64,000 bases of DNA from Alphaproteobacteria bacterium (lineage in GTDB: Bacteria; Pseudomonadota; Alphaproteobacteria; Rhodobacterales; Rhodobacteraceae). Below are positions 5,712 through 44,534 of the stretch, piece after piece; within the stretch, counting starts at the first letter, position 1; each line of letters starts with the position of its first letter. Below the pieces are notes generated by a model. The model worked only from the letters and a program-made list of their open reading frames with translations, was not told the origin of the DNA and did no database searches. The stretch covers positions 1 through 64,000 of the forward strand of contig JAUIHM010000005.1 in NCBI GenBank assembly GCA_030432315.1, given 5' to 3'. The position numbers and the translations under genes are program-made.

Positions 5712-6052
5712 GCGGCGGATTCGCTCCAGCTGTCCCAGGCTCGGAGCGCCTTGGCGGAGAAGGCGTAGGACGGGCCGCCGCCCATGTAGGTCGCCATGGC
5801 GAGGGCTTCGCAGAGTTCGGGGCGGGTGACCTTCAGGCGGATCAGGGCGCGGATGTGAAAGCCGATGCAGCTGTCGCAGCGGGTGGCGATGGCAATTCCG
5901 AGGGCCATGAATTCCTTGGTGCGTTCATCCAGCGCCCCGTTGGTTTTCGCCGCCCGGCCCATGGCGCCGAAGGCATGGGCGGTGTCGGGGATCTCGCGGG
6001 CGAGGGTGGCGATATTGGCCTCGGTCTCGGCCATGAAGTCGTTCCAGTCCAT
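5681..6052 (-). CDS. Carboxymuconolactone decarboxylase family protein (AhpD-like)
   Basis: LDERTKEFMALGIAIATRCDSCIGFHIRALIRLKVTRPELCEALAMATYMGGGP with CxxC. Confidence 0.9.
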   Translation of the reverse strand: MDWNDFMAETEANIATLAREIPDTAHAFGAMGRAAKTNGALDERTKEFMALGIAIATRCDSCIGFHIRALIRLKVTRPELCEALAMATYMGGGPSYAFSAKALRAWDSWSESAAQNGRTTLPE

Positions 6053-27559: not shown

Positions 27560-28438
27560 ATGCAGCGAAAACGCCGGCGCCTGCACTGGCTGGATTTTGT
27601 CATTGTCGGGGTTCTCGCCGCCTTCGTGTCCTTTGTGTGGTTTCGCATCGAGGGCACGCTGAACTACAGGTGGAACTGGGGGATCATCCCCAACTACATC
27701 CTGCGATATGATGCGGAGGATGGCCGGTGGGTGGCGAACCTGCTGCTGCAGGGGCTGATCACCACGGTGCGGGTCTCGATCTATGCCGGGATTCTGGCGT
27801 TGATCCTCGGCACCGTCCTCGGCATTGCCCGCTGCGCCACCAATCTGACGGTACGGATGCTGGCCCGCACCTATCTTGAGGTGCTGCGCAACATCCCGCC
27901 GGTGGTGGTGATTTTCATCTTCTATTTCTTTTTGTCCGAACAGCTTGTCGCCGCCTTCAACATCGAGGGCTGGGCCCGTGCCATCGCCCGCCAGGAAAAC
28001 AGCGGTGTCTGGGAGTTTTTCTTCGGTGACATGCGGCGGTTTCCGTCGATGATCTCCGGGGTGATCGTGCTGGCGCTGTTCGAAAGCGCCTTCGTCGGCG
28101 AAATCGTCCGCTCCGGCATTCAGTCGATCGAGCGCGGCCAGTCCGAAGCCGCCAGGTCTCTGGGCATGACCTGGGTCGACGAAATGCGTTTCATCATTCT
28201 GCCCCAGGCGCTGAAGCGGGTGGTGCCGCCGCTGGCGAACCAGTTCATTTCGCTGGTGAAGGACAGTTCGATCATCTCGCTGATCTCGGTTCAGGAACTT
28301 ACCTACAAGACGGTGGAACTCGTCGCCTCGACCCGGGCGATTTTCGAGGCCTGGATCACCACCGCAGGCCTCTATTTCGTGCTCTGTTTCAGCCTGTCGA
28401 TGCTGTTTCGCCGGCTGGAGCGCGACGCTTCCCGCTAG
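27560..28438 (+). CDS. Amino acid ABC transporter permease
   Basis: EVLRNIPPVVVIFIFYFFLSEQL; SGIQSIERGQSEAARSLGMTWVDEMRFIILPQALKRVVPPLANQFISLVKDSS. Confidence 0.93.
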   Translation: MQRKRRRLHWLDFVIVGVLAAFVSFVWFRIEGTLNYRWNWGIIPNYILRYDAEDGRWVANLLLQGLITTVRVSIYAGILALILGTVLGIARCATNLTVRMLARTYLEVLRNIPPVVVIFIFYFFLSEQLVAAFNIEGWARAIARQENSGVWEFFFGDMRRFPSMISGVIVLALFESAFVGEIVRSGIQSIERGQSEAARSLGMTWVDEMRFIILPQALKRVVPPLANQFISLVKDSSIISLISVQELTYKTVELVASTRAIFEAWITTAGLYFVLCFSLSMLFRRLERDASR

Positions 28439-29571
28439 CCGGCGAACGACCGCTCGAAGAGTTCGCGAAACCCTTCCTCGGTCATCTGGCGCGGATTGGT
28501 TGGCGTCGAATGGTCGGCCATTGCCGCCCTGCACATCGCCGGAATGATGTCGGGCGTGAGCCCCATTGCCGCAAGGCTCGCCGGCATGCCGATATCCCGG
28601 TTCAGCGCCTTGACCAGCGCCGCCAGATCGGCGGACGAATCGACACCCAGAGCCTTGCGGATACGGTCATATTTCGTGCCCGCGTGATCCTGGTTCCAGG
28701 TCAGAACGTGCGGCAGGATCACCGCATTGAGCGTGCCGTGATGCGGATTGACCGACTTCACCGAGCCCAGCGGATGCGACATCGAATGCACCGCCCCGAG
28801 CCCCTTCTGGAAGGTCAGCCCGCCCTGGAGCGATGCCATCATCATCTCGCTGCGCGCCACCCGGTCTGAGCCGTCCCTGACCGCGCGGCGGATATGCAGC
28901 CACCCCCGCACCAGCCCGTCGAGGGCAATTGCCTCGGCCACCGGATTGTCCTTCGGGCTCAGAAACGTCTCGAAACAGTGGGTCAGTGCGTCCATGCCGG
29001 TCGCGGCCGTCAGACCGGCGGGCAGGCCAAGGGTCAGTGCGGGGTCGCAGATCGCCCGGCGCGGGATCAGATGCGGGCTGATCAGCCCGAGCTTGCGCCC
29101 GTCCGCGACGGTCAGCAGCGATGCCCGGCCAACCTCGGCTCCGGTGCCCGAAGTGGTGGGAACGGCGATCACCGGCACCACCGCATCGGTGATCCGGGCA
29201 AGCCCGCCTTCGATCACCGCATATTGCGACAGCGGTCCCTCATGGGTTACGCGCAGTGCCACCGCCTTGCCGAGATCGATCGGCGAACCTCCGCCAAGCG
29301 CGACAATTCCGTCGCAGCCGCCGGCGCGGTAAACTTCTGCCGCCGCGTCGCAGGCGGCTTCGGTCGGGTTGGAGGGGGTGCCGTCAAACACCGCCGTATC
29401 CTTCGGCAGCCTGGCCAGCACCTGGTCCACAAGGCCGGTTGCCCGAAGTCCGGCATCGGTGACCAGCAGCGGCTGTTTGATGCCGGTCGCGGCCAGTTCC
29501 TCCGGCAATACGTCGACCGCGCCCTCGCCAAAGCGGATTGTCGTCAAATACTGGATCGTAGTGACACTCAT
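28435..29571 (-). CDS. Iron-containing alcohol dehydrogenase
   Basis: GCDGIVALGGGSPIDLGKAVAL, TAATGMDALTHCFETFLS, GAVHSMSHPLGSVKSVNPHHGTLNAVILPHVL. Confidence 0.94.
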   Translation of the reverse strand: MSVTTIQYLTTIRFGEGAVDVLPEELAATGIKQPLLVTDAGLRATGLVDQVLARLPKDTAVFDGTPSNPTEAACDAAAEVYRAGGCDGIVALGGGSPIDLGKAVALRVTHEGPLSQYAVIEGGLARITDAVVPVIAVPTTSGTGAEVGRASLLTVADGRKLGLISPHLIPRRAICDPALTLGLPAGLTAATGMDALTHCFETFLSPKDNPVAEAIALDGLVRGWLHIRRAVRDGSDRVARSEMMMASLQGGLTFQKGLGAVHSMSHPLGSVKSVNPHHGTLNAVILPHVLTWNQDHAGTKYDRIRKALGVDSSADLAALVKALNRDIGMPASLAAMGLTPDIIPAMCRAAMADHSTPTNPRQMTEEGFRELFERSFAG

Positions 29572-29702
29572 GGCGTTCATTCCCTGAAGGTTTTTGGCAG
29601 AAAGGCCGTACCGGCCGGTTTGGCGCGAGTATGGTCAAAACCGCAGCACTGGCAACCGCTTCCGCAAGCCTGTAGCCTGCCGCAGGCAAACGGAGTCGCG
29701 GC

Positions 29703-31073: not shown

Positions 31074-32852
31074 ATGAAGATGACAACCGAAGAGGCGTTT
31101 GTAAAAGTTCTGCAAATGCACGGGATCGAACATGCGTTCGGCATCATCGGATCGGCTATGATGCCGATATCCGATCTGTTTCCGAAAGCCGGGATCACCT
31201 TCTGGGACTGTGCCCATGAGTGCAATGCCGGCATGATGGCCGACGGTTTTACCCGCACCACCGGGCAGATGTCGATGCTGGTGGCGCAGAACGGTCCGGG
31301 CATCACCAATTTTGTTACACCGGTCAAAACCGCCTACTGGAACCACACGCCGCTGCTGCTGGTCACGCCGCAGGCCGCCAACAAGACCATCGGCCAGGGC
31401 GGGTTCCAGGAAGTCGAACAGATGAAACTGTTCGAGGACATGGTCGCTTACCAGGAAGAGGTGCGCGATCCCTCCCGCATCGCCGAAACCCTCAACCGGG
31501 TCATCATGGAAGCCCACCGTGCCTCCGCCCCGGCGCAGATCAACGTGCCGCGCGATTTCTGGACCCAGGTTGTGGATATCGACCTTCCCGGCATCCTTGA
31601 ATTCGAACGGCCCTCCGGGGGCGAGCAGGCGATCGCGGCGGCGGCGGATCTGCTCAGCGACGCCAAATTCCCGGTCATTCTCAATGGTGCCGGTGTGGTG
31701 CTGTCGGGCGGCATCCCCGCCTCCGTCGCACTTGCCGAACGGCTCACGGCTCCGGTCTGCTGCGGCTACCAGCACAACGACGCCTTTCCCGGCAGTCATC
31801 CGCTGCATGCAGGCCCGCTTGGCTACAACGGATCCAAGGCGGGGATGGAACTGATTTCGAAGGCTGATGTGGTGCTTTGTCTCGGTACGCGGCTCAATCC
31901 GTTCTCCACCCTGCCCGGTTACGGCATAGACTACTGGCCGACGGACGCGAAAATCATCCAGGTCGACATCAATCCCGCCCGGATCGGACTGACCAAGAAG
32001 GTCACCGTCGGCATCGTCGGCGATGCCCGCAAGGTGGCCGATTCCATCCTCGCCCGACTCTCGGACACGGCTGGCGACGACGGCCGCGACGCGCGCAAAA
32101 ACCTGATCGCCCAGACCAAATCCGCCTGGGCCCAGGAACTCAGTTCGATGGATCACGAGGAGGACGACCCCGGCACCACCTGGAACGAACGTGTCCGCGC
32201 CCGCCAGCCCGACCATATGAGCCCGCGCAAGGTCTGGCGCGCGATCCAGGCTGCCCTGCCCGCCGATGCGATCATTTCATCGGATATCGGCAACAACTGT
32301 GCCATCGGCAACGCCTATCCGTCGTTCGAGAAGGGCCGGAAATATCTCGCCCCGGGCCTGTTTGGTCCGTGTGGCTACGGCTTCCCGTCGATCGTCGGCG
32401 CCAAGATCGGCAACCCGGATACGCCGGTGGTCGGTTTTGCCGGCGACGGTGCCTTCGGCATTTCGATGAACGAGATGACCGCCTGCGGCCGCGATCCCTG
32501 GCCGCCGATTACCATGGTGGTGTTCCGCAACTACCAGTGGGGCGCGGAAAAGCGCAACACGACGCTGTGGTTCGATGACAATTTCGTCGGCACCGAACTT
32601 AGCGAAGACGTGACATACGCCGGCATTGCCCAGGCCTGTGGCGTCGAGGGGGTTCAGGTGACGACCATGGACCAGGTGACCGACGCCCTGCACGCGGCGG
32701 TGAAACGGCAGATGGAGGACAAGAAGACCACGTTCATTGAGGTGGTGCTGAATCAGGAACTCGGCGAGCCGTTCCGCCGCGACGCGATGAAACGTCCGGT
32801 GTCGGTGGCGGGCATTGATCCCGCCGACATGCGCCCGCAGCGCCGCGCCTGA
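31074..32852 (+). CDS. xsc: Sulfoacetaldehyde acetyltransferase
   Basis: MTTEEAFVKVLQMHGIEHAFGIIGSAMMPISDLFPKAGITFWDCAHECNAGMMADGFTRTTGQMSMLVAQNGPGITNFVTPVKTAYWNHTPLLLVTPQAANKTIGQGGFQEVEQM; ThDP fold. Confidence 0.95.
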   Translation: MKMTTEEAFVKVLQMHGIEHAFGIIGSAMMPISDLFPKAGITFWDCAHECNAGMMADGFTRTTGQMSMLVAQNGPGITNFVTPVKTAYWNHTPLLLVTPQAANKTIGQGGFQEVEQMKLFEDMVAYQEEVRDPSRIAETLNRVIMEAHRASAPAQINVPRDFWTQVVDIDLPGILEFERPSGGEQAIAAAADLLSDAKFPVILNGAGVVLSGGIPASVALAERLTAPVCCGYQHNDAFPGSHPLHAGPLGYNGSKAGMELISKADVVLCLGTRLNPFSTLPGYGIDYWPTDAKIIQVDINPARIGLTKKVTVGIVGDARKVADSILARLSDTAGDDGRDARKNLIAQTKSAWAQELSSMDHEEDDPGTTWNERVRARQPDHMSPRKVWRAIQAALPADAIISSDIGNNCAIGNAYPSFEKGRKYLAPGLFGPCGYGFPSIVGAKIGNPDTPVVGFAGDGAFGISMNEMTACGRDPWPPITMVVFRNYQWGAEKRNTTLWFDDNFVGTELSEDVTYAGIAQACGVEGVQVTTMDQVTDALHAAVKRQMEDKKTTFIEVVLNQELGEPFRRDAMKRPVSVAGIDPADMRPQRRA

Positions 32853-32863
32853 ACCGGTCGCCG

Positions 32864-33910
32864 GTGAAGCCCGCGATGTTGCGAAGGATCGCAGGTCCGG
32901 AACCCGTCGCGGGCGTCACCCGGTTTGTCCGTGCCAACGGCTACGGGGTACTGGTTTCCCTGATCGTCGCGGCGGCGGCCCGATTTCTGTCCGAGCATTA
33001 CGGCGCGCCACCGATGCTGATGGCGCTGCTGCTCGGCATTGCCCTGCACTTCCTGGCCGAAGAGGGGCCCTGCGTCGAAGGGATCGCCTTTGCCTCCCGA
33101 ACCGTGCTGCGGATCGGGGTCGCGCTTCTCGGGGTGCGGATCAGTCTCGAACTGATGCTCGATCTCGGGGCGGAGTTGATCGCGACGGTGGTGGCGGCGG
33201 TGATCTGCACGATCCTGTTCGGTCTGCTTGGCGCACGTCTGTTGGGACGGGGCTGGCGGTTCGGGCTGTTGACCGGGGGAGCGGTGGCGATCTGCGGCGC
33301 CTCGGCGGCGATCGCGATTTCCGCGGTATTGCCGAAGAACGAACATTCCGAGCGCAACCTGATTTTCACCGTGCTGGCGATAACCGTGCTCAGTACCGTG
33401 GCGATGATCTGCTATCCGATCCTCGGCCGCAGCCTCGGTCTCGACGACCCCGGCATCGGCCTGTTTCTCGGCGGCACGATCCACGACGTGGCCCAGGTGG
33501 TCGGTGCGGGCTTCTCCGTCTCCGAGAGCGCCGGCGAGGTTGCCACGCTCGTCAAGCTGATCCGCGTGGCGATGCTGGCGCCCGTGGTGGTGGTGATTTC
33601 GCTGACCGTCCGCCGGCAGGCGGGTGCAGGCGCCGCGGGCGGACCCCGTCCTCCGCTGCTGCCGGGGTTCGTCGCCGGGTTCCTGGCACTTGCCGCCCTG
33701 AACTCCGCGGGCATGATCCCGACCCCCTTCCTGTCGGCGCTGGCGGGACTGTCCGGCTGGGCGCTGCTGACGGCGATCGCCGCAGTCGGGATGAGAACCT
33801 CGCTGCGCCGGATTGTCGATGTCGGCGGTCAGGCGATCGCGCTGCTGCTGGCGGAAAGCCTGTTCATAGCCGTGTTCGTGCTGGCGGGACTGGCATTGCT
33901 CGAGGGCTGA
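32864..33910 (+). CDS. YeiH-family putative sulfate exporter (UPF0324-like)
   Basis: GVALLGVRISLELMLDLGAE, GGAVAICGASAAIAISAVLP, GGTIHDVAQVVGAG. Confidence 0.9.
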   Translation: MKPAMLRRIAGPEPVAGVTRFVRANGYGVLVSLIVAAAARFLSEHYGAPPMLMALLLGIALHFLAEEGPCVEGIAFASRTVLRIGVALLGVRISLELMLDLGAELIATVVAAVICTILFGLLGARLLGRGWRFGLLTGGAVAICGASAAIAISAVLPKNEHSERNLIFTVLAITVLSTVAMICYPILGRSLGLDDPGIGLFLGGTIHDVAQVVGAGFSVSESAGEVATLVKLIRVAMLAPVVVVISLTVRRQAGAGAAGGPRPPLLPGFVAGFLALAALNSAGMIPTPFLSALAGLSGWALLTAIAAVGMRTSLRRIVDVGGQAIALLLAESLFIAVFVLAGLALLEG

Positions 33911-33921
33911 GTCTGCCCGGA

Positions 33922-34815
33922 TCAGTCCCACTGCACCGAGGCCAGCAGCGTCCGGCGTGCCGACTGCAGATGCACGTCGAACGCGGCCCGCGCCGCCGCA
34001 GGATTGCCCGCTTTCATCGCCGCGATCACAGCCAGATGTTCGCCGACGGCGGTATCGTTGCGGTCCTTTTCATCGGCCTTGTTCCAGCGGTAATGATAAT
34101 GGAAGATCACTGACACCAGCTTGAAGAAGTCGTCGACGAACCGGTTCTGCATCCGCGCGATCCAGACGTGGTGAAACCGCTCATCGAGCCGCGGGAACCG
34201 CAGGTATCCGCTCCCGATGTCGCTGCTGATCTGCCGGTGTTCCGCCTCAAGCAGCAGCACCTCACGCCAGGTCTCTCCGCCCGGCCCTTCCGCCAGCATT
34301 GCGTCGAAAGCGCGGGTCTCGAACATCTCGCGCACGTCGAACAGTTCAATGGCGAAATCGCGGGTGAAGCCCTTCAGCACCCAGTGCCGGTTCGGTTCCT
34401 TTTCGATCAGGCCAAAGCGTGAGAACCGGATCAGGAATTCACGCACCGCCGAGGTCGAGGTGCCGAATTCGCGGGCAAGGTCGCTCTCATGCAGAATTGT
34501 ATCCGGTGCCAGATCGCCGCCCAGCACGTACTCCATGAAGGCCTCTTCAACCCGCCGGGCCGCGGGCAGGGTTTCTTCGACAGAATAGTAATCCGTTGCG
34601 GTTGGCAGGCGCAGAACCGCCTTGGTCCGGCCCTTCCAGCGGATGATCCCCGAGCGGTCGAGATTTTCCAGCACCGCCCGCACGGTTGTGCGGGAGATCC
34701 CCCATTTTTCCGCAAACTCGGTTTCCGGCGGCAGGTTGCCGCGCGGACCCGCTTCCGCCAGCCAGTCGAGACAGCGGTTGTAGGTTTCCTTGTAGACGGC
34801 GTTTGATCTGGACAT
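33922..34815 (-). CDS. GntR-family regulator with two tandem N-terminal wHTH domains and a C-terminal FCD-like domain
   Basis: wHTH 1: LPPETEFAEKWGISRTTVRAVLENLDRSGIIRW; wHTH 2: LHESDLAREFGTSTSAVREFLIRFSRFGLIEKE; then FCD-like helices (DEKDRNDTAVGEHLAVIAAMKAGN). Confidence 0.85.
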   Translation of the reverse strand: MSRSNAVYKETYNRCLDWLAEAGPRGNLPPETEFAEKWGISRTTVRAVLENLDRSGIIRWKGRTKAVLRLPTATDYYSVEETLPAARRVEEAFMEYVLGGDLAPDTILHESDLAREFGTSTSAVREFLIRFSRFGLIEKEPNRHWVLKGFTRDFAIELFDVREMFETRAFDAMLAEGPGGETWREVLLLEAEHRQISSDIGSGYLRFPRLDERFHHVWIARMQNRFVDDFFKLVSVIFHYHYRWNKADEKDRNDTAVGEHLAVIAAMKAGNPAAARAAFDVHLQSARRTLLASVQWD

Positions 34816-34850: not shown

Positions 34851-35876
34851 CTAACCCGCGGGCATTTCTATCATGACCTTGAAGGTCTCGCTGCGGTTGC
34901 GTTCCCACCAGTCAAACGACTGGTCGGCTTCGTTCCACGGGAACACCTGCGAAATCAGCCTTTCGCCGGTTTGCGGGTTTTGTTCGAGGAACCGGATCAC
35001 CGCCGCGAAATCCGCCCGGGTGGCGTTGCGCGAGCCGAACATGTCGAGCTCCTTGAGATTGAACAGCGCGGTGTTGTAGCTGACCTCGGATTTGGCGTAA
35101 CCCACGTAGACCACCCGTCCGGCAAAGCAGGCCATGTCGACCGCTGCCCGAAAGGTCTCCGGCAGTCCCACCGCCTCCAGCACCAGATCGGCGCCCTCGC
35201 CACCGGTCAGGGCGGTAACCGCTTCTCCGGCATCGCTTTCAGTCGGATCAATCACATGGGTTATGCCAAGTTCGAGCAGTTCGGCGTGTTTGGGCCGGCT
35301 CGGCTCCACCGCAATGACCGTCGCGCCGCGTTCCTTCGCTGCCAGCATCGCGCCGACACCGATCATGCCGCCGCCCAGCACGACAACCGTTTCACCCTCG
35401 GTCACCGAGCCGCGCGCCACCGCGTGAAACCCGACCGACAGTGGTTCGACCAGCGCCAGCAGCGGCGCGTCCAGCGTTTCGTTGACGATCAGCCGGTCGT
35501 GATGCACCACCAGGAAATCCGACATGCCGCCGTCCTGCTGCACGCCGAGGGTCGCGTTGTGACGGCAGGCATTCACCCGCCGTTTGCGGCAGGCGGAACA
35601 GGTGCCGCAGGTGGTATAGGGGATCACCACTGCGCGGGCGCCGGGGGCAAACTGCGGCGGGACACCACTGCCGGTCTGTTCGATTACGCCGCCGATTTCA
35701 TGTCCGGGAACGCGCGGCAGGCGGGCGAGCGGATTGGCGCCGCGCCAGGTGTTGAGATCGCTGCCGCACAGACCGACGTGGCGGACGCGCAGCTTCACAA
35801 GGCCCGGTCCGGTCACCGGATCGGGCACGTCCCGAAACTCGGTAGCCCCCACGTCGCTTATCACCAGTGCCTTCAT
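34851..35876 (-). CDS. Zinc-dependent alcohol/polyol dehydrogenase (MDR family)
   Basis: HVGLCGSDLNTWRG, PGHEIGGVIEQTGSGV, CGTCSACRKRRVNAC, GGGMIGVGAMLAA. Confidence 0.92.
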   Translation of the reverse strand: MKALVISDVGATEFRDVPDPVTGPGLVKLRVRHVGLCGSDLNTWRGANPLARLPRVPGHEIGGVIEQTGSGVPPQFAPGARAVVIPYTTCGTCSACRKRRVNACRHNATLGVQQDGGMSDFLVVHHDRLIVNETLDAPLLALVEPLSVGFHAVARGSVTEGETVVVLGGGMIGVGAMLAAKERGATVIAVEPSRPKHAELLELGITHVIDPTESDAGEAVTALTGGEGADLVLEAVGLPETFRAAVDMACFAGRVVYVGYAKSEVSYNTALFNLKELDMFGSRNATRADFAAVIRFLEQNPQTGERLISQVFPWNEADQSFDWWERNRSETFKVMIEMPAG

Positions 35877-36040: not shown

Positions 36041-36084
36041 TCCGCCGTCAATGTACTTTAAGGAAGAAGTACATTGACGGCGGA
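36041..36084. promoter_or_regulatory. 44-bp perfect inverted repeat (18-bp arms, 8-bp spacer) in a divergent promoter region
   Basis: TCCGCCGTCAATGTACTT-taaggaag-AAGTACATTGACGGCGGA. Confidence 0.7.
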
Positions 36085-36157
36085 ACACCGCCCAGCGATA
36101 CCGGCGGCCGGACCGAAACCGGGTTCAGCCAGCCGCATGACCAGCCGGAGACCGAAA

Positions 36158-37267
36158 ATGACCGCAGCCAAAACGCCGATCCTCCAGTTTGGTACCAGCC
36201 GTTTCCTTCAGGCCCATGCCGACCTTTTCATCGATGAGGCGCTCGCGGAAGGTTCCGCGCCAGGTCCCGTCACCGTGGTTCAGACCACAGGTGACGCCTC
36301 ACGGGCGGGCCGGGTCAAGGCGCTCGCAAATCCGAACGGCTACCCGGTGCGCATCCGCGGGCTGGAAAACGGCCAGCCGGTTGACAGGACACAGACCGTC
36401 CGCTCCATCCGCCGCGGGCTCAGCACCGCAACGGACTGGGATGTGGTCGTGGGCCTGATGTGTGGCGAGATAACCCATGTGATCTCCAATACCGGCGAGC
36501 GTGGTTTCGAGCCTCAGCCTGCCGATCTCGGCAGCCGGTTCGACCAGGCGATGTCCTATCCGGCGAAGCTCCAGCTTCTGCTGCGGGCCCGCTACCAGGC
36601 GGGGGAAAAGCCGTTGCAGATCTTTCCCACCGAACTGGTCGAACGTAACGGCGACGTGCTGCGGGCGCGGATTCTCGAACTGGCAGCTACCGGCGACGGC
36701 GCCTACACCACCTGGCTGAAAACCCGGGTGATCTGGGCGAATTCCCTTGTCGACCGCATCGTCTCCGAACCGGTTGAGCCCGCCGGGGCCGTCGCCGAGC
36801 CCTACGGCCTCTGGGCGATCGAGAAGGCACCTGGGCTGATCCCGCCCTGCACCCATCCGATGGTCCGGCTTTTCGACGATCTGAACAAGCCCCTGTCGCT
36901 GAAACTGTTCATTCTCAATCTCGGCCATACCTGTCTGGTGGACGCCTGGAAAAAGGAGTCGAGGGGTGTGGAAACCACCCGCGCCCTGATGGACATCGAC
37001 GAGGTGCGGGAAAACCTCATCGACCTACTAAAGACCGAAGTGCTTCCGGGTTTCGCCGCCGCCGGGATGGGCGACGATGCCGCCGCCTATCTTGAGACCA
37101 CCATTGAACGGATCCGAAATCCGTATCTCGACCATTATCTGCGGGACATCGCCGTCAATCACGACAAGAAGATCGAGTTCCGGATTCGGGCCTTCATCGC
37201 CTGGGCCGCGGCGGCCGGCGACACTACGCCCAAACCCCGCCTCGAAGCGATCCTGGCCGGACGGTGA
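36158..37267 (+). CDS. Mannitol dehydrogenase family protein (tagaturonate reductase/UxaB-like)
   Basis: ILQFGTSRFLQAHADLFIDEAL...VVGLMCGEITHVISNTGERGFEP; IEKAPGLIPPCTHPMVRLFDDL. Confidence 0.85.
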   Translation: MTAAKTPILQFGTSRFLQAHADLFIDEALAEGSAPGPVTVVQTTGDASRAGRVKALANPNGYPVRIRGLENGQPVDRTQTVRSIRRGLSTATDWDVVVGLMCGEITHVISNTGERGFEPQPADLGSRFDQAMSYPAKLQLLLRARYQAGEKPLQIFPTELVERNGDVLRARILELAATGDGAYTTWLKTRVIWANSLVDRIVSEPVEPAGAVAEPYGLWAIEKAPGLIPPCTHPMVRLFDDLNKPLSLKLFILNLGHTCLVDAWKKESRGVETTRALMDIDEVRENLIDLLKTEVLPGFAAAGMGDDAAAYLETTIERIRNPYLDHYLRDIAVNHDKKIEFRIRAFIAWAAAAGDTTPKPRLEAILAGR

Positions 37268-42118: not shown

Positions 42119-42643
42119 CTACCCCTGCCCTTCGGCGCTCCAGGCCTTTTCCTTCACCAGCCGCCGTGCCGCCTCTGCCACCACATCCTCGAACGATCCG
42201 GCAATGTCGACGCTGAACCCGTCTTCATCGGGCTCCAGCGGTTCCAGCGCTGCGAACTGGCTGTCGAGCAGGCTGACCGGCATGAAGTGTCCATCGCGTG
42301 CTGACATCCGCCCCTCGATCACCTCGCGCGATCCAGCCAGATGCAGAAACACCACCGGCCGGCCGGCGGCCTCGCGAATCCGGTCGCGGTACTTGCGCTT
42401 GAGCGCTGAGCACCCGACCAGAACCGGCATCGATGCATCGCGCAGGGCAACGCCGACCAGGTCGAGCCACGGCCAGCGGTCCTCGTCGGTCAGCGGCGTG
42501 CCTGCGGACATTTTCGCGATGTTTGCCGGCGGGTGCAGGTCGTCGCCGTCACGGTAGCGGGCGCCGACAATCTCGCCGACCCGGCGACCCACGGTCGATT
42601 TGCCGCATCCGGCTACCCCCATGACCACGCAGCACGGCATCAA
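42119..42643 (-). CDS. gntK: Gluconokinase
   Basis: VMGVAGCGKSTVGRRVGEIVGARYRDGDDLHPPANIAKMSAGTPLTDEDRWPWL. Confidence 0.95.
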   Translation of the reverse strand: MMPCCVVMGVAGCGKSTVGRRVGEIVGARYRDGDDLHPPANIAKMSAGTPLTDEDRWPWLDLVGVALRDASMPVLVGCSALKRKYRDRIREAAGRPVVFLHLAGSREVIEGRMSARDGHFMPVSLLDSQFAALEPLEPDEDGFSVDIAGSFEDVVAEAARRLVKEKAWSAEGQG

Positions 42644-43413
42644 AGCGACGCCGTGATGCCGCCGTCAACATAGAGCGTATGCCCGTTGACGAAGCTCGAT
42701 GCCGGTGCTGCCAGGAACACGCAGGCCCCGACCAGTTCATCGACATTGCCCCAGCGCCCGGCCGGGGTACGTTTTTCCAGCCAGGCAGTGAATTCCGGGT
42801 CTGCGACCAGCGCCGCGTTCAGTGGCGTGTCGAAATATCCCGGTGCGATCGCATTGCACTGCAGCCCGTGTTTCGCCCAGTCGGTCGCCATGCCCTTGGT
42901 GAGGTTCGCCACCGCGCCCTTGGTGGCGGTGTAGGGTGCGATGCCCGGTCGTGCCAGCAGGGTCTGCACGCTGGCGATGTTGATGATCTTGCCCGCGCCG
43001 CGGCCGATCATGTGCCGAGCCACCGCCTGACCGACATGAAATACCGAGGCGACGTTGGTCTGCAGCAGCCGTTCGAACGCATCGGCGGGGAAATCCTCCA
43101 GTGGGGTGCGGTGCTGCATCCCGGCATTGTTGACCAGAATGTCGATTGCACCGGTCTCGGTCTCGAACCCGTCCACCGCAGCCCGAACGCGCTCGTGGTC
43201 GGTGGCATCGAACCCGAGCACCGCCACCTCTGCGCCCTCGTCCCGCAGGATCTCCGCCGCGGCGTCGAGCTTGGCCGCGTCGCGTCCGTTGAGCACCACC
43301 GCCGCACCGGCTGCCGCAAGCCCGCGCGCAAGCGCGAGGCCGATCCCCTGGGACGACCCGGTCACCAGCGCCCGCCGCCCCGTCAGATCGAAGAGTTCCG
43401 TTCCCGTAGGCAT
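42640..43413 (-). CDS. SDR oxidoreductase, gluconate 5-dehydrogenase-like (IdnO-like)
   Basis: FDLTGRRALVTGSSQGIGLALARGLAAAGAAVVLNGRD; NNAGMQHRTPLEDFP; YTATKGAV. Confidence 0.92.
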   Translation of the reverse strand: MPTGTELFDLTGRRALVTGSSQGIGLALARGLAAAGAAVVLNGRDAAKLDAAAEILRDEGAEVAVLGFDATDHERVRAAVDGFETETGAIDILVNNAGMQHRTPLEDFPADAFERLLQTNVASVFHVGQAVARHMIGRGAGKIINIASVQTLLARPGIAPYTATKGAVANLTKGMATDWAKHGLQCNAIAPGYFDTPLNAALVADPEFTAWLEKRTPAGRWGNVDELVGACVFLAAPASSFVNGHTLYVDGGITASL

Positions 43414-43502
43414 GTTCCACCCCATATTGCGCTCGACATTTTGTTGCAGGTCTTATTTGGTCGTTGCAATAGCCTGTCAAGTCCCGCCCAACCGAGGTTG
43501 CC

Positions 43503-44534
43503 ATGAAGTCGATAGTGATTCACGCCGCAAAAGACCTTCGTATTGACGAGCGTGAAACCGGCGCGCTAGGTCCGGGTGAGGTGATGATCGCCATTGCCCG
43601 CGGCGGCATCTGCGGCTCCGACCTTCATTATTACAATCACGGCGGTTTCGGTGACGTGCGTATCCGCGAGCCGATGACGCTCGGTCACGAGGTGTCGGGT
43701 CACGTCATTGCACTTGGTGACGGTGTTACCGGCCTTGCGGTCGGACAGCTGGTGGCCGTCTCCCCGTCGCGCCCCTGCTACAGCTGCCGTTACTGCCGCG
43801 AGGGCCGGCACAATCACTGCCTCAACATGCGTTTTTACGGCAGCGCCATGCCGTTTCCGCACATTCAGGGCGCGTTTCGCGAAACCCTCGTGGCCGAAGC
43901 GTCCCAGTGCGTTTCCGCCGAGGGACTGACCCCCGGCGAGGCGGCGATGGGCGAACCGCTCGCGGTTTGTCTGCACGGTGTCCGCCAGGCCGGGGAACTG
44001 CTCGGCAAGCGTGTTCTGGTGACGGGATGCGGTCCGATCGGACTGCTCTGCATCCTTGCCGCCCGCCGCGCCGGCGCCGGCGAAATCGTTGCGACCGATC
44101 TCTCGGATTTCACCCTTGGCATGGCCGGAGCCGCCGGGGCGGACCGGACGGTCAACATGGCTGACGCGTCGGACGACCTTGCCGGTTACCACGCCGACAA
44201 GGGACATTTCGACATTCTGCTGGAATGCAGCGGTGCCGCCCCGGCCCTGCGCGCGGCAATTCCGGCTCTGCGGCCGGGTGGAATCATCGTTCAGCTGGGC
44301 CTTGGCGGCGACATGACCCTTCCGGTTCAGGCGATGACAGCCCGCGAGCTTCAACTGCGCGGATCGTTTCGGTTTCACCCCGAGTTCGCCACCGGACTGT
44401 CCCTGATGCAAAAGGGCCTGATCGACGTGAAACCGCTGATCACCCACACCTTTTCCCTGAACGAAGCCGTTGCTGCATTCGAGATGGCCGGCGACCGAAC
44501 TCAGGCGATGAAGGCCCAGATCGCCTTCAACTGA
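43503..44534 (+). CDS. idnD: L-idonate 5-dehydrogenase
   Basis: GGICGSDLHYYNHGGFGDVRIREPMTLGHEVSGHV; SRPCYSCRYCREGRHNHCLNMRFYGSAMPFPHIQGAFRE. Confidence 0.93.
   Translation: MKSIVIHAAKDLRIDERETGALGPGEVMIAIARGGICGSDLHYYNHGGFGDVRIREPMTLGHEVSGHVIALGDGVTGLAVGQLVAVSPSRPCYSCRYCREGRHNHCLNMRFYGSAMPFPHIQGAFRETLVAEASQCVSAEGLTPGEAAMGEPLAVCLHGVRQAGELLGKRVLVTGCGPIGLLCILAARRAGAGEIVATDLSDFTLGMAGAAGADRTVNMADASDDLAGYHADKGHFDILLECSGAAPALRAAIPALRPGGIIVQLGLGGDMTLPVQAMTARELQLRGSFRFHPEFATGLSLMQKGLIDVKPLITHTFSLNEAVAAFEMAGDRTQAMKAQIAFN

Follow-up and report, generated by a model that had tools for sequence, protein, structure and literature searches.

A 44-bp palindrome between divergent dehydrogenase genes contains the predicted operator of a double-wHTH GntR regulator

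What does a long and perfect palindrome do between two divergently transcribed dehydrogenase genes, and which protein would read it? The question is raised by a locus in the 64-kb stretch of DNA that was analysed here (the window), with the following features:

36041-36084, no strand: perfect inverted repeat of 44 bp, with 18-bp arms and an 8-nt spacer
34851-35876, minus strand: Zn-dependent dehydrogenase gene (adh), leading the adh-gntR operon; its best NCBIfam match, PRK10083, is below the cut-off
33922-34815, minus strand: gene (gntR) for a double-wHTH, FCD-type GntR regulator of 297 aa (Pfam GntR and FCD), the likely reader of the operator O1 described below
36158-37267, plus strand: UxaB (tagaturonate reductase)-like gene (uxaB) of the mannitol dehydrogenase family, below the NCBIfam cut-off

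The palindrome reads TCCGCCGTCAATGTACTT-taaggaag-AAGTACATTGACGGCGGA at 36041-36084. Its coordinates, letters, 18-bp arms and 8-nt loop had all been given exactly in an earlier, sequence-only reading, and the 281-bp divergent spacer described there is correct given the adh ATG at 35876 (minus strand) and the uxaB start at 36158. Alternatively, uxaB may start at an in-frame ATG at 36137. The 13-mer around it, CGCATGACCAGCC, is identical to the 13-mer around an ATG near the uxaB start of a related locus (L009), and the ribosome-binding site is better at 36158 than at 36137. Since both enzymes score below the NCBIfam cut-offs, a route from L-galactonate over tagaturonate to altronate, for instance, can be no more than a plausible assumption.

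Several other genes were noted in the window. Convergent with the gntR operon lie a strong sulfoacetaldehyde acetyltransferase (Xsc) gene at 31074-32852 (TIGR03457, 930 bits, above the cut-off) and, next to it, a YeiH-like gene at 32864-33910, named by inspection only. An iron-containing 4-hydroxybutyrate dehydrogenase is encoded at 28435-29580 (NF058672, above the cut-off). Gluconokinase-like (by inspection), SDR and L-idonate 5-dehydrogenase-like genes at 42119-44534 may form a hexonate cluster, within which no match to the operator described below was found.

The palindrome had been called unusually long and perfect, and the simulations bear this out. It is the sole perfect stem of at least 13 bp (loop of at most 12 nt) in the window, while the longest stem in each of 60 first-order Markov simulations of the window measured 9-12 bp and never more; about 6.5e-5 stems of 18 bp are expected per window by chance. 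The draft assembly (189 contigs, 3.37 Mb, 86.6% complete) holds no further copy of the arm with up to 3 mismatches, and because the arm has no second copy in the draft genome the palindrome does not belong to a repeat family. A dispersed repeat of the REP or MITE kind, of which scattered copies would be expected in the sequence-only reading, was thus ruled out: the arm occupies a single locus at this threshold. A further small perfect stem, GGCGG-aaca-CCGCC (36079-36092), starts within the right arm and, if it is transcribed, might form in competition with the long one.

The regulator encoded by gntR passes the Pfam cut-offs for both GntR (55.3 bits, cut-off 27) and FCD (48.9 bits, cut-off 24.3). 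Alignment and an AF2 model (mean pLDDT 86) give it two complete wHTH units, at residues 6-67 and 85-147, so that it departs from the usual FCD architecture of one N-terminal wHTH per subunit and represents an architectural variant. Both recognition helices (R42 and R46; S120, R125 and E126) are conserved in 34 orthologues, and no characterised double-wHTH GntR protein was found in literature searches. The best structural match is VanR Atu1419 (PMC7797058; PDB 6z74, 6za3), likewise an FCD regulator, with a metal-binding effector domain and with sites that overlap promoter elements. Residues D211, H215, H260 and H282, also conserved in 34 orthologues, would be a metal or effector site by analogy with this protein, in which the ligands are Asn/His/His/His. 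The VanR Atu1419 tetramer can hold two operators (PMC7797058), but unlike the regulator here it has one wHTH per subunit and 10-bp operators (ATGTATACAT).

What this regulator may bind is indicated by its relatives. The comparison set consisted of 48 loci carrying orthologues of gntR. The divergent order of uxaB and adh-gntR is kept in four of them (L003, L009, L015, L028); in others gntR is divergent from an adh-uxaB pair, or sugar ABC transporter, short-chain dehydrogenase and RraA-like genes are found in the operon (L014). Across these differing neighbourhoods a 22-bp motif recurs, TGTTTTTTAT-nn-ATAAAAAACA, with 45 matches of at most 4 mismatches in the 48 loci, compared to a median of 1 and a maximum of 17 for permuted half-sites (n=60). 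The motif was first noticed by eye in the relatives, and a symmetric matrix (PWM) carrying 23.8 bits was trained afterwards on the orthologue loci, with the source genome left out. Sites of at least 15 bits occur in 14 of 27 held-out orthologue loci and in 0 of 25 unrelated GntR loci (maximum 10.2).

The motif usually occurs as a pair, although this is not universal and several relatives have a single site only. Among 33 close site pairs 26 are spaced by 39-41 bp, and the typical order is O1, 0-1 nt, TTGAC, about 12 nt, O2, from which it follows that O2 covers the -10 element. Both sites, at a spacing of 40 bp and on either side of TTTGAC, are also found with a same-genus orthologue that did not belong to the training set. 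Two Thalassospira loci have two operator pairs each, at 5847/5888 and 6947/6998 (L023) and at 5847/5888 and 6960/7011 (L025), one pair on either side of gntR, which suggests that control by the regulator extends there to the adjacent transcription unit downstream.

Applied to the window, the matrix places the first operator in the middle of the palindrome:

36052-36073, no strand: core of operator O1, TGTACTTTAAGGAAGAAGTACA, a member of the TGTTTTTTAT-nn-ATAAAAAACA family by the matrix built without this genome
36014-36035, minus strand: position of O2 according to the relatives, degenerate here, with only the first half GTTTTT kept

The core at 36052-36073 is the top site of the 64 kb with 17.8 bits, compared to 6.3 for the runner-up; 50 shuffled windows reached at most 13.0. 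When relatives with uxaB in the neighbourhood were also left out of the matrix, it scored 16.6 and the next site 5.3 bits. O1 scores lower here than most sites of the relatives, and its halves are unequal (11.9 vs 5.5 bits). A second copy about 40 bp downstream is missing: at offsets of 34-45 the PWM gave -14 to -42 bits. Elsewhere in the genome, three places resemble O1 at 3 mismatches; as this is fewer than a reversed control pattern gives, they are not evidence of further sites. We conclude that the core of the palindrome is very probably the operator O1 of the double-wHTH GntR regulator, with binding predicted from the motif.

Known GntR operators provide a context for this site. As in FadR/FCD divergons, a palindromic site lies between a structural gene and an operon containing the transcription factor gene, and in such divergons both operons are usually controlled from a single site (Suvorova et al., 2015; PMC4494728). 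The FadR-subfamily consensus is short, with GT/AC near the centre (NyGTM-N0-1-KACNy) (PMC4494728), whereas here TGT and ACA are 16 bp apart, 20 of the 22 positions are informative, and relatives of the regulator use site pairs about 40 bp apart. The centre of this operator family, TTATnnATAA, is similar to the operator of BioR, TTATMKATAA (cited in PMC4494728), and both regulators are of GntR type. However, the BioR site stops at this centre while the operator family described here adds TGTTT/AAACA outside, and the regulator carries an extra wHTH. In the site of this genome the TTATnnATAA centre is only partly present (TTAAGGAAGA).

The proposal that the double-wHTH regulator reads the palindrome therefore finds support for the 22-bp core, which fits the orthologue-linked motif, but not for the full 44 bp. 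All 44 bp could in principle be an extended operator with each double-wHTH monomer on an 18-bp arm, that is, four wHTH units spanning about four helical turns. The two intact and conserved wHTH units and the perfection of the arms over 18 bp would fit this, but the symmetry conserved in relatives is 22 bp long, the next 11 bp on each side match at only 0-7 of 11 positions, and the -35 box in the outer arm has its own reason for one-sided conservation. We consider the extended operator improbable. The doubled-length operator of the sequence-only reading has a different counterpart in the relatives, where doubling takes the form of a second 22-bp operator, separate from the first and about 40 bp away.

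This leaves the outer part of the arms, where two further features flank O1:

36046-36051, minus strand: TTGACG, putative -35 box of the adh-gntR promoter, directly next to O1 as it is in relatives
36074-36079, plus strand: mirrored TTGACG, putative -35 box of the uxaB promoter, found in no relative

Outward-facing TTGACG boxes had been noted in both arms, and they are indeed present (36074-36079 and 36051-36046), but the -10 candidates at 17 nt are poor on both sides: neither GATACC (36097-36102, uxaB side) nor GTAGGT (adh side) is a good consensus. A sigma70 consensus scan found no promoter. Promoters of Alphaproteobacteria commonly lack the -7 T (PMC8407463). The adh-facing box occupies the position of the conserved -35 box of the relatives, and the mirror extension that faces the UxaB-like gene, TTGACG(GCGGA), is private to this genome. 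The 11 outer positions beyond the core are symmetric at 11 of 11 here and at 0-7 of 11 in 85 other sites; the chance of a complete match is about 5e-7 per site. In the same 85 sites TTGAC flanks the operator on the right only in 26, on the left only in 7, on neither side in 52 and on both sides in none, and none of 396 other genomes from the same bacterial family has the symmetric pattern TTGAC-O1-TTGAC.

Whether the mirrored box is used bears on how uxaB is transcribed. The distance from O1 to uxaB is 84 nt here and 16-43 nt in four relatives with O1 beside uxaB. In three relatives the uxaB start is only 16-21 nt away, so that O1 must overlap the uxaB promoter there. The 84-nt distance leaves room for a promoter beginning at the mirrored TTGACG, and we lean slightly towards the mirrored -35 box being in use and facing uxaB. 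It is also possible, if less probable, that template switching perfected the dyad of the same operator without consequence, so that the mirrored TTGACG is unused and the uxaB promoter lies elsewhere in the spacer. Of the 11 mirrored bases the -35 box accounts for no more than 5-6, GCGGA being mirrored too; the -10 candidate facing uxaB is poor; and homogenisation of arms is documented in yeast, where a perfect arm went from 5 bp to 16 bp (PMC8604942). Against such an idle mirror stand the greater distance of uxaB from O1, with its space for a promoter from the mirrored box, and a spacer in which no better promoter was found.

A mirror copy by template switching over the operator dyad is given about even chances as the origin of the outer, uxaB-facing arm. 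Quasipalindrome template-switch mutation makes longer, perfect arms out of inverted repeats that are short and imperfect (PMC8604942; PMC7202029); the difference is that the outcome here would be a regulatory element. A DNA search with the spacer in 60 relatives gave no orthologous spacer and one stray 25-bp match. In comparison with the closest relative (L003), an 11-bp insertion was matched equally well by 392 of 3000 shuffles; this is not significant, and the template-switch origin therefore stays a proposal.

The sequence-only reading had offered an RNA hairpin or attenuator as its alternative, and a stem-loop in the uxaB or adh leader (attenuator, terminator or mRNA stabiliser) would be in line with a very stable predicted fold (-32.6 kcal/mol, z -10.7). 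Such stability is expected of any perfect palindrome, however, and there is neither a T-run or terminator-like site nor an Rfam family at gathering score. Furthermore, the relatives conserve the operator and not the stem. Transcripts from the putative -35-driven starts should both begin downstream of the palindrome and so lack it, and it seems very unlikely that the palindrome acts as RNA.

The operator reading can be put together as follows. A single O1 is probably shared by back-to-back adh-gntR and uxaB promoters and bound by the GntR repressor, as predicted from the motif. A regulator dimer would bind the 22-bp core at 36052-36073, and the TTGACG boxes on its two sides would fire to adh-gntR and to uxaB, respectively. 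Because these -35 boxes abut O1 on both sides, the bound repressor would stop RNA polymerase both ways. A sugar acid acting as effector in the FCD domain may release both promoters, and with them gntR itself, which would then be autoregulated. The arrangement resembles the bidirectional promoters of E. coli in that pseudo-symmetric DNA fires both ways (PMC12825309), but here the promoters are predicted to be back to back with the repressor site between the -35 boxes. The adh-facing half is ancestral, because relatives share the O1-TTGAC order. The outer 11 bp facing uxaB may have been copied in a replication template switch across the dyad of the operator itself, and a promoter box that worked in one direction would thereby have come to work in both.

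The element is a GntR operator in a divergon and as such of a known kind (PMC4494728). It is unusual in its two-wHTH regulator, the long 22-bp operator, the paired sites in relatives and the private mirrored -35 box. A broader proposal, which we hold only tentatively and consider rather unlikely as a whole, is that of a new GntR sub-family in which the two wHTH units of each subunit read the 10-bp half-sites of paired 22-bp operators, spaced by about 40 bp around the promoter, and in which a template switch here copied the -35 box, so that a two-way promoter was born in a single event. For the double-headed GntR family this gives a predicted operator together with a promoter architecture and a candidate regulon, and exact sequences are supplied with which to test how the two wHTH domains of each subunit share 22 bp of DNA. 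An origin of the mirror by template switching would make it a concrete case of operator symmetry generating a divergent promoter.
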